A stretch of 28,981 bases of DNA. Source: a virus. Below the pieces are notes generated by a model. That model ran no database searches, had not been told where the DNA came from, and saw only the letters and a list, made by a program, of their open reading frames with translations. Shown here one piece after another: positions 25,356 through 25,784 of this stretch (position 1 is its first letter; each line of letters starts with the position of its first letter). Both the position numbers and the translations under genes were made by a program. The stretch covers positions 1 through 28,981 of IMG/VR virus record IMGVR_UViG_3300021963_000504; one strand, given 5' to 3'.

Positions 25356-25384
25356 AAAAAAAGAGGGAGAGTCAAGTCTCCCTC
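25356..25384 (-). terminator. Intrinsic terminator after the riboswitch cassette
   Basis: A perfect 8-bp stem (GAGGGAGA, 25363-25370 with 25377-25384), 6-base loop, then seven T on the minus strand (25362-25356). It lies 4 bases past the stop of the 32-residue gene and ends that unit before the acidic thyX-linked gene. Confidence 0.92.
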
Positions 25385-25388
25385 CGAA

Positions 25389-25487
25389 TCATTTTGCTGC
25401 TACCAGAGTAGCAAGAGATGCTTTATGACGCCTCTCTTCCTTTTGCTTCTGCTCTTTGATGAGTTGAAGTACGTTGAGTTTTTTCAT
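25389..25487 (-). CDS. 32-residue basic peptide, second gene of the riboswitch cassette
   Basis: The product MKKLNVLQLIKEQKQKEERR... ends HKASLATLVAAK. It is a single strongly charged helix followed by a small hydrophobic end. An unusually strong ribosome site (AAAGGAGGGG) lies 6 bases upstream, and the ATG overlaps the stop of the 45-residue gene (ATGA). These signals make a real gene very likely despite its length. Function unknown; perhaps a partner or regulator working with the first peptide. Confidence 0.75.
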   Translation of the reverse strand: MKKLNVLQLIKEQKQKEERRHKASLATLVAAK

Positions 25488-25621
25488 TTGTGCCCCTCCT
25501 TTACAAACTTAACACCACGATAGGTTTCGTTGTATTGTTGAGGTTGTTGCATCATTTGCTGTTGATACTCAAGACGCTTTTGAGTATCATACTCAACACC
25601 GCGATAAACTACTTTAGACAT
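25484..25621 (-). CDS. 45-residue DUF4278/PirA-like peptide under the glutamine riboswitch
   Basis: The product starts MSKVVYRGVEYDTQ and ends ETYRGVKFVKEGHK, with two copies of YRGV separated by a Gln-rich helix (RLEYQQQMMQQPQQY). The YRGVxY motif near the N-terminus and a second YRG copy are the hallmark of cyanobacterial DUF4278 proteins. As I recall, these include PirA, a small protein that binds PII and alters arginine synthesis. AAGGAG lies 9 bases before the ATG. The leader is a glutamine-riboswitch-like RNA, whose known targets in cyanobacteria and cyanophages are short peptides. PII binding by this phage version is inference. Confidence 0.8.
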   Translation of the reverse strand: MSKVVYRGVEYDTQKRLEYQQQMMQQPQQYNETYRGVKFVKEGHK

Positions 25622-25652
25622 TAGGGTTCTCCTTAGTTTTTTAGGTTAAAGA

Positions 25653-25749
25653 GCGTTCCTTCAGTCGGCGTTTGCGTTCGCTATTTGCAAATAGCGAATG
25701 AACGATCCGTTCCGCGTCGGCTTACTTCCGTCTGTTTCCAGATGAACGT
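25653..25749 (-). ncRNA. Glutamine riboswitch (glnA / Downstream-peptide type)
   Basis: Minus-strand RNA carries the family's conserved blocks in order: CGTTCATC (25748-25741), a small hairpin TCTG-GAAA-CAGA, then GACGGAAGTAAG, and at the 3' end CTGAAGGAACGC. The first CGTTC pairs with the last GAACG as P1. Between them is a 22-base perfect palindrome (25677-25698) forming a long extra hairpin, and an additional GGAACG copy at 25713-25708, so the inner pairing is uncertain. The predicted transcript start (about 25749) is at the first base of P1. It lies 31 bases upstream of a short-peptide gene, the usual context. Confidence 0.82.
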
Positions 25750-25755
25750 AAGGTC

Positions 25756-25784
25756 ATTATAGACCTGTTAGTATAGTTATACAA
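25756..25784 (-). promoter_or_regulatory. Sigma-70-type promoter of the riboswitch cassette
   Basis: The minus strand has a perfect -10, TATAAT (25761-25756), 17 bases after TTGTAT (25784-25779), a half-matching -35. The start would fall at about 25749, the first base of the riboswitch. No NATAAATA element is present, so early expression by host polymerase is expected. Confidence 0.7.

Follow-up and report, generated by a model that had tools for sequence, protein, structure and literature searches.

The virus record IMGVR_UViG_3300021963_000504, analysed here over its whole length of 28,981 bases (the window), carries on its minus strand a small cassette in which a leader with the sequence blocks of a glutamine riboswitch precedes two very short genes, the first for a DUF4278-like peptide. 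The locus raises the question of what kind of RNA this leader forms: two glutamine modules stand in it head to tail, each below the Rfam cut-off. A sequence-only reading had described the cassette as a promoter, a glutamine-riboswitch leader, two peptide genes linked by ATGA, and a terminator. The cassette so described is confirmed as real; the leader's identity as a glutamine riboswitch is supported and it starts at the predicted +1, but it holds two modules rather than one aptamer. Comparison with relatives makes it quite probable that the leader forms a double, domain-swapped version of the glutamine-I riboswitch, with its base pairing taken from that comparison and its glutamine binding predicted.

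Nothing but two tRNAs attains an Rfam gathering score in the whole window. A relaxed scan of 551 bases matched the glutamine-I family, RF01739, to positions 25706-25650 on the minus strand at 33.8 bits (E 1.4e-5) and to 25748-25708 on the same strand at 22.6 bits; in a genome-wise search the two modules scored 33.8 and 31.7 bits. The Rfam check suggested by the earlier reading thus returned a glutamine riboswitch, but under the cut-off of 35, which two relatives (L001 and L004) pass with 35.6 and 35.1 bits. Low scores for PreQ1, Glutamine-II and STnc50 in the window were put down to chance or to cross-matching of the glutamine core.

One explanation of the two modules is a pair of independent tandem glutamine aptamers exerting pseudo-cooperative control. 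Indeed, Rfam matches each module separately, and a survey found 157 glutamine doublets and 4 triplets, classed as pseudo-cooperative (PMC9481103; papers are cited here from excerpts of their text). As separate aptamers, however, both modules are incomplete. Module 1 has CGGAAGUA and no GAAG ahead of GGAACG, and module 2 has GAAGGAACG and no AGUA, so that each is without one strand of the loop E motif (GAA in module 1, AGUA in module 2).

We propose instead that the modules exchange strands. Module 1 would contribute its 5' half (CGUUCA-P2a-CGGAAGUA) and module 2 its 3' half (GAAGGAACGC) to one canonical three-way-junction aptamer with loop E. The P3 stem would form between the modules and be common to both cores, and within the P3 loop would lie another glutamine-binding core in circularly permuted order, GGAACGG-loop-CGUUCA-P2b-CGC. 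Only in this swapped fold does the glutamine-I feature set (P1, P2, CGS, loop E with AGUA and GAA, and the long-range pair) come together in one junction, loop E being read from sequence. The predicted parts in the window are these:

25748-25653, minus strand: composite (domain-swapped) double glutamine aptamer, from comparison of relatives
25748-25744, minus strand: 5' strand of outer P1, CGUUC, pairing with 25658-25654
25742-25731, minus strand: P2a hairpin in its empty (short) form; P2a covaries in an alignment of short-loop composites (A5)
25730-25723, minus strand: CGGAAGUA, which includes S1 (25728) and the loop E strand AGUA; S1 pairs with Z2 in 277/277 composites
25722-25715, minus strand: 5' strand of P3, AGCCGACG, pairing with 25670-25663
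25712-25700, minus strand: inner P1' hairpin, GAACG-GAU-CGUUC, the place of a homing-endonuclease-like gene in some relatives
25698-25677, minus strand: P2b hairpin UUCGCUAUUUGCAAAUAGCGAA in its empty form, the place of an open reading frame (ORF) of 49-69 amino acids (aa) in many relatives
25676-25674, minus strand: CGC of module 2, whose S2 (25674) pairs with Z1 (25707)
25670-25653, minus strand: 3' strand of P3, GAA strand of loop E, 3' strand of outer P1 (GAACG) and Z2 (25653)
25653-25629, minus strand: possible hairpin sequestering the Shine-Dalgarno (SD) sequence, CUCUUUA/UAAGGAG, formed in the minimum free energy (MFE) structure of the window

Relatives were collected by the downstream peptide alone (the best 80 of 410, and the best 80 of 503 confirmed), by two DNA patterns and from named phages, and a parser found 277 distinct composites, window included, in 323 loci. 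Both DNA patterns preset parts of the motif, one of them S2=C. The topology was tested on the long-range S-Z pair. In glutamine-II RNAs the partners are the last base of CGC and the base that follows GGAACG; the glutamine-II pseudoknot helix has its counterpart in the P1 helix of glutamine-I, and an equivalent long-range pair ends each (PMC6698751). Its position in glutamine-I was transferred by alignment.

Across the 277 distinct sequences, the pair S1-Z2, a link between module 1 and module 2, is always Watson-Crick: 197 have C-G and 80 have G-C. S2-Z1 is Watson-Crick in 271/277, 7 swapped G-C pairs included, the exceptions being four C.A and two C.U. The pairs expected of separate aptamers, S1-Z1 and S2-Z2, each fit 198/277 and are non-Watson-Crick in 79/277 (two of the S1-Z1 cases are G.U) as well as in the window itself, where S1=G, Z1=G, S2=C and Z2=C, so that swapped pairing alone works there. 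Among the 125 distinct sequences whose loci came from the peptide search only, with no selection by an RNA pattern, S1-Z2 holds in 125 and S2-Z1 in 120, against 61 for S1-Z1 and 61 for S2-Z2.

The inter-module P3 stem has strands of equal length in 269/277 composites and of unequal length in 8/277. Its innermost pair, X-Y, is Watson-Crick in 268/269 (G-C 156, U-A 95, A-U 17); the shuffle mean is 185, and 0/2000 shuffles attain 268. In eight further loci the inner P1 reads CAACG/CGUUG with the outer P1 unchanged (CGUUC/GAACG); two separate aptamers would break twice, in both tandem P1s. (Rows of this P1-variant scan beyond the inner-P1 variants mostly reflected an upstream P1 that had been chosen wrongly, and they were not used.) RNAalifold, run unaided on A5, which comprises 65 short-loop composites and excludes the window, returned outer P1, P2a, the inner P1 hairpin and P2b, not P3, and favours the swap. 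The swapped structure pairs 94.9% of the cells in A5, and a tandem structure with P3 as a pseudoknot still pairs 92.6%, both far over slid controls; the difference lies in the two long-range pairs, which stand at 100% and 98.5% in the swap and at 69.2% and 67.7% in the tandem. On the long-range pairs, the inner-P1 compensation and the RNAalifold result we reject independent tandem aptamers as very improbable. The 145-nucleotide (nt) leader folds better than 200/200 dinucleotide shuffles (z -2.85); the computed energies, -21.5 swapped and -16.7 tandem, deserve little weight, since the tandem figure omits its pseudoknotted P3.

Several observations count against the domain-swapped double form. 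Each module alone is below the Rfam cut-off. The parser demanded CGTTC and GGAACG, which fixes the P1 columns in the 277; the composites are also mutually related, and the shuffles are uncorrected for kinship. Over the whole of P3, 1515/1788 cells are paired, and there is a long P3 class with two C.A or A.C mismatches. The eight inner-P1 variants all have the same P3 class, possibly because they form a single lineage, and in one of them (L210) Z2=A breaks S1-Z2. Unconstrained folding of the window gives an MFE of -31.6 kcal/mol with P2a, inner P1, P2b and the SD hairpin kept and outer P1 missing. A general SD-sequestering hairpin was itself rejected: the window has one of 7 bp, but relatives show it in 116/192 against 648/960 shuffled sequences, so that the hairpin is at most a candidate expression platform. 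Finally, loop E is missing from the inner core, which may be degenerate as a site.

That last point leads to a sub-variant of the swapped fold, in which one functional glutamine-I aptamer carries an elaborate P3 insert and the inner permuted core is a decayed, non-binding duplicate. The full consensus with loop E does exist at the outer site only, and single-aptamer forms occur in 5/80 peptide-found close relatives, where a local P3 hairpin (GGGAAACC or GGGAAACT) replaces the whole insert at the same place in the layout CGGAAGTA-GGGAAACY-GAAGGAACG. Given this plain hairpin, the double form looks like one aptamer whose P3 was opened for a permuted second core. Decay sits poorly, however, with the retention of S2-Z1 in 271/277 with its 7 swapped G-C pairs, with the conservation of the inner blocks in A5 (partly required by the parser), and with the compensated inner P1 in 8 loci. 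We regard a decayed inner core as a serious contender, if somewhat short of an even prospect.

The strict parser, applied to the best 80 of 410 and the best 80 of 503 peptide-found loci, recognised 60 and 44 composites and 5 and 0 single forms; the other 15 and 36 include variant motifs, truncated contigs, endonuclease-bearing loci and single forms with CGTTG/CAACG. Five loci (L201-L203, L206 and L207) have single aptamers upstream of the peptide; their P1 is compensated (CGUUG/CAACG), and their P3, CCA-UU-UGG, is local. L161 has a diverged double form about 145 nt upstream of the peptide in which the linkers still pair (GGCAUAA/UUAUGUC), and in L480 (1146-1467) three glutamine modules seem to follow one another, the P3 strand of the first being apparently without a partner. 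A pattern scan of genome contigs yielded no composites in its 119 loci and no recognised cyanobacterium in the best 80 of the 119 stretches; it looks dominated by chance and says nothing about cyanobacteria.

In the window all three loops of the composite (P2a, P2b and the inner hairpin) are empty. The empty form of the inner-hairpin insertion site reads GGAACGGAT-CGTTCA, and the inner P1' loop measures 3-4 nt in 259/277 composites. The window's P2b is a perfect palindrome, and many relatives have near copies of it in their P2b and at times in their P2a.

In many relatives, P2a and/or P2b encloses an ORF instead of a short hairpin. Among distinct inserts of more than 80 nt, a spanning ORF is found in 70/71 at P2a (59-75 aa; L222 is without one) and in 168/171 at P2b (49-69 aa; L434, L446 and L480 are without), and shuffled interiors retain one in 26/1420 and 227/3420 cases, respectively. 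The start is always ATG and lies at P2 offset 3-5 in 234/238. At P2b the stop falls at +13 or +16 from the P2 3' end in 160/168, within GACUGA/GACUAA directly before GGAACG; at P2a it falls at -14 to -2 in 53/70 and at +9, within CGCAAGUAA, in 17/70. Omega is about 0.15 in frame for P2a (17 pairs) and 0.18 for P2b (49 pairs), against 1.0-2.2 in the other frames, which supports purifying selection on these small genes. The P2 ends pair and covary across the ORF, the first four pairs being Watson-Crick in 259/280 (P2a) and 638/672 (P2b) against shuffle means of 221 and 506; the signal of the P2a ends is weaker when distinct ends only are counted (48/56 paired, shuffle mean 40.9, 2/2000 shuffles as high).

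Five nested proteins were searched: four from P2b matched phrog_504 (E 0.015 to 1.8e-19) and one from P2a matched phrog_6471, both families of unknown function. A relative of the P2b protein occurs in 188 phage records (seven examined). The 13 phages fetched from 18 peptide-bearing records (the other five being duplicates) all show the double form and one or more nested ORFs, and the same is true of 10 further phages chosen for a nested protein or endonuclease. In P-SSM2 the nested ORF (L004 2312-2461) is unannotated in AY939844.2; it is annotated in P-SSM5.

In some relatives the third loop is occupied too. In four loci (L136, L150, L154 and L205) the gene for a protein of 189-196 aa fills the inner P1 hairpin loop, and a search by this protein only found it there, in a loop of 549 nt, in 10/10 loci, which are close relatives and partly the same contigs. 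The protein matches PHROG families of homing endonuclease (E 1.8e-5) and HNH endonuclease (E 2e-8); it had no relevant Pfam match, and a sequence search of solved structures gave nothing useful. It may resemble a GIY-YIG enzyme. Relatives of about 53% identity occupy the same loop, at 591 nt, in Sf-CH5, S-H68 and RN05-S; the Sf-CH5 copy is annotated as a homing endonuclease, and in Sf-CH5 all three loops are filled. Twenty-one phage records match the protein (four examined), and a partial relative in S-PM2 lies elsewhere, adjoining F-CphI between psbA and psbD. Inner loops of 21, 64 and 99 nt in L191, L253 and L286 are perhaps remnants.

Group I introns carry protein genes, homing endonuclease genes among them, in peripheral loops without destruction of the RNA, and the nested ORFs may likewise be passengers in tolerant loops, uncoupled from glutamine. 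This explanation is compatible with the swapped fold, and P2a, P2b and the inner loop are indeed all peripheral, gene content varies among relatives, one ORF family occurs in either P2, and the inner-loop gene is of homing-endonuclease type. (The family that switches place is the usual P2a one, which sits in P2b in L468; P2 cassettes seem mobile.) What fits less well is where the genes begin and end: starts at P2 offset 3-5 in 234/238 bring the initiation region over the aptamer's P1 and P2, and the stops are concentrated at a small number of sites within or close to P2 and the conserved 3' elements. We judge the passenger explanation to be evenly balanced against its opposite. The phage RNA resembles group I introns in placing a homing-type endonuclease gene within a peripheral loop of a structured RNA; it differs in being a predicted ligand sensor, in showing no splicing, and in that the gene ends overlap the sensor sequence. 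Complete protein genes in loops are known from introns; they are not known to occur in riboswitches.

In the swapped fold, glutamine would bind the outer site and perhaps the inner also. Glutamine-I and glutamine-II RNAs bind glutamine and increase expression in cyanobacteria (PMC6316151), and glutamine build-up in the infected cell might similarly fold the phage RNA and raise translation of the DUF4278-like peptide. In relatives whose P2a, P2b or inner loops hold genes, with starts and mostly stops too within aptamer sequence, control would be opposite: ribosomes starting in a P2 gene would have to open P1/P2 and would keep the sensor open, so nested translation and ligand-bound folding should exclude each other. 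Since AUG is fully pairable with the facing P2 strand in only 80/238 inserts, any exclusion would be mainly steric. We put forward only tentatively the full scheme of an interlocked, quasi-two-fold symmetric double sensor, evolved in cyanophages, with three gene-docking loops. It would switch in two directions, giving nested proteins when glutamine is low and the DUF4278-like peptide when glutamine is high, and a homing endonuclease would use it as an insertion site.

The remaining parts of the cassette are the following:

25784-25779, minus strand: -35 element TTGTAT, with only 3/6 consensus matches and a 17-base spacer
25766-25751, minus strand: inverted repeat AGGTC-TATAAT-GACCT, 5-bp arms, with the -10 at its centre
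25761-25756, minus strand: -10 box TATAAT, a perfect match in sequence, with a predicted +1 at about 25749, directly before the aptamer
25621-25484, minus strand: gene for the 45-aa, DUF4278-like peptide (phrog_5049), from its ORF and profile matches
25487-25389, minus strand: ORF for a 32-aa peptide, overlapping the 45-aa gene by ATGA
25385-25362, minus strand: intrinsic terminator, a 9-pair stem followed by a T run

Next to the cassette are genes for S-adenosylmethionine decarboxylase and thymidylate synthase. At the DNA level, the last 9 kb of the window have matches in 16 phage records, 15 from Synechococcus phages and 1 from a marine virus. The two ATGA-linked genes are present as described, with AAGGAG and GGAGG as ribosome sites upstream of the 45-aa and 32-aa ORFs, and so is the terminator: a scanned stretch of 1.2 kb has five terminator-like sites, three of them overlapping readings of 25385-25362, against 0.5 in shuffles. 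In the sigma-70-type promoter the TATAAT is perfect and the spacing 17 bases, but the -35 is poor and the TTGTAT/TATAAT pair at that spacing was not listed by a promoter scan. Arms of at least 6 bp around the -10 occur in 114/230 distinct upstream 30-mers of composites against 62/1150 shuffles. In many relatives these arms vary yet remain complementary, for example TGTGTTA/TAACACA and GGATAGTG/CACTATCC; L001 and L002 do not show the repeat.

The 45-aa peptide has the two YRGV motifs from which the sequence-only reading had placed it in DUF4278, as a PirA-like regulator of host PII/arginine control. Its kinship to DUF4278 (PF14105) is supported by profile searches: the window's copy scores 19.1 bits (E 0.0017), under the Pfam cut-off of 25.3, all of 7/7 aligned peptides (window and six relatives) match at E<=0.01 (best 5.4e-7), and the P-SSM2 copy passes with 29.0 bits. 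The PirA identity is not supported. In the excerpts of the literature, DUF4278 spans the N-terminal part of IF17, a glutamine-synthetase inactivating factor, and accompanies cyanobacterial glutamine riboswitches (PMC6316151), PirA is absent from marine picocyanobacteria (PMC8092223), and of the papers that a full-text search for DUF4278 found, none concerns PirA by its title. With that link unsupported in the literature searched, PII/arginine control is a guess. An action of the peptide on host nitrogen assimilation is plausible by analogy, although the N-terminal part of IF17 is reported to be dispensable for glutamine synthetase inhibition (PMC6316151).

The 32-aa peptide weakly matches (E 0.026) the N-terminal part of phrog_545, and the YRGV stretch of the first peptide matches phrog_545 positions 25-37, as if one fused peptide had been split into two genes and its parts reordered. 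Downstream of the 277 composites, a YRG peptide follows at once in 186, the contig ends in 5, and another start follows in 86. Twelve of these 86 were viewed, of which 11 begin MNTL, most with YRG further on, and by look they resemble the fused family phrog_545. In L003 (2680-2881; AG-345-E15), a manA RNA of 162 bits stands close behind the DUF4278-like peptide gene.

Among known systems, RF01739 shares with the phage RNA the consensus CGUUCA-P2-CGSAAGUA-P3-GAAGGAACG, loop E, the long-range pair and a DUF4278-type gene downstream; the phage RNA differs in its P3, opened and shared with a permuted second core, and in the genes in its relatives' loops. Glutamine-II (RF01704) has in common the binding core CGUUC/GGAACG, the long-range pair and a short downstream peptide, but it is a pseudoknot whose second helix closes behind GGAACG, whereas the phage RNA is a nested three-way junction with loop E. 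The 157 tandem doublets likewise have two glutamine modules per leader, and the sets possibly overlap; as excerpted, however, those are complete riboswitches in series, pseudo-cooperative, in place of swapped strands (PMC9481103). That survey took tandems only without an intervening ORF, so nested-gene forms would probably drop out of it. The Melnitz-type riboswitch is also a predicted glutamine riboswitch in a marine phage, but it stands at tmRNA, and the excerpt mentions neither a double fold nor nested genes (PMC9004378). Tandem glnA RNAs and the link between glutamine riboswitches and DUF4278 were already known (PMC2864571, PMC9481103, PMC6316151), and cyanophage glutamine riboswitches had been mentioned (PMC9964418, PMC9602691). 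Among the literature matches listed and the excerpts given there, no report described a swapped double fold or an aptamer with protein genes in its loops, and an earlier description is possible.

The finding would mean that the 'tandem' glutamine riboswitches of at least these cyanophages form one interlocked RNA, whose cooperativity would have to be modelled and tested differently. It indicates that a ligand-sensing aptamer may be able to house whole protein genes in its loops, and natural variants with zero, one, two or three genes offer a test of whether translation and ligand binding exclude each other. It points, too, to a concrete nitrogen-sensing step during cyanobacterial infection.
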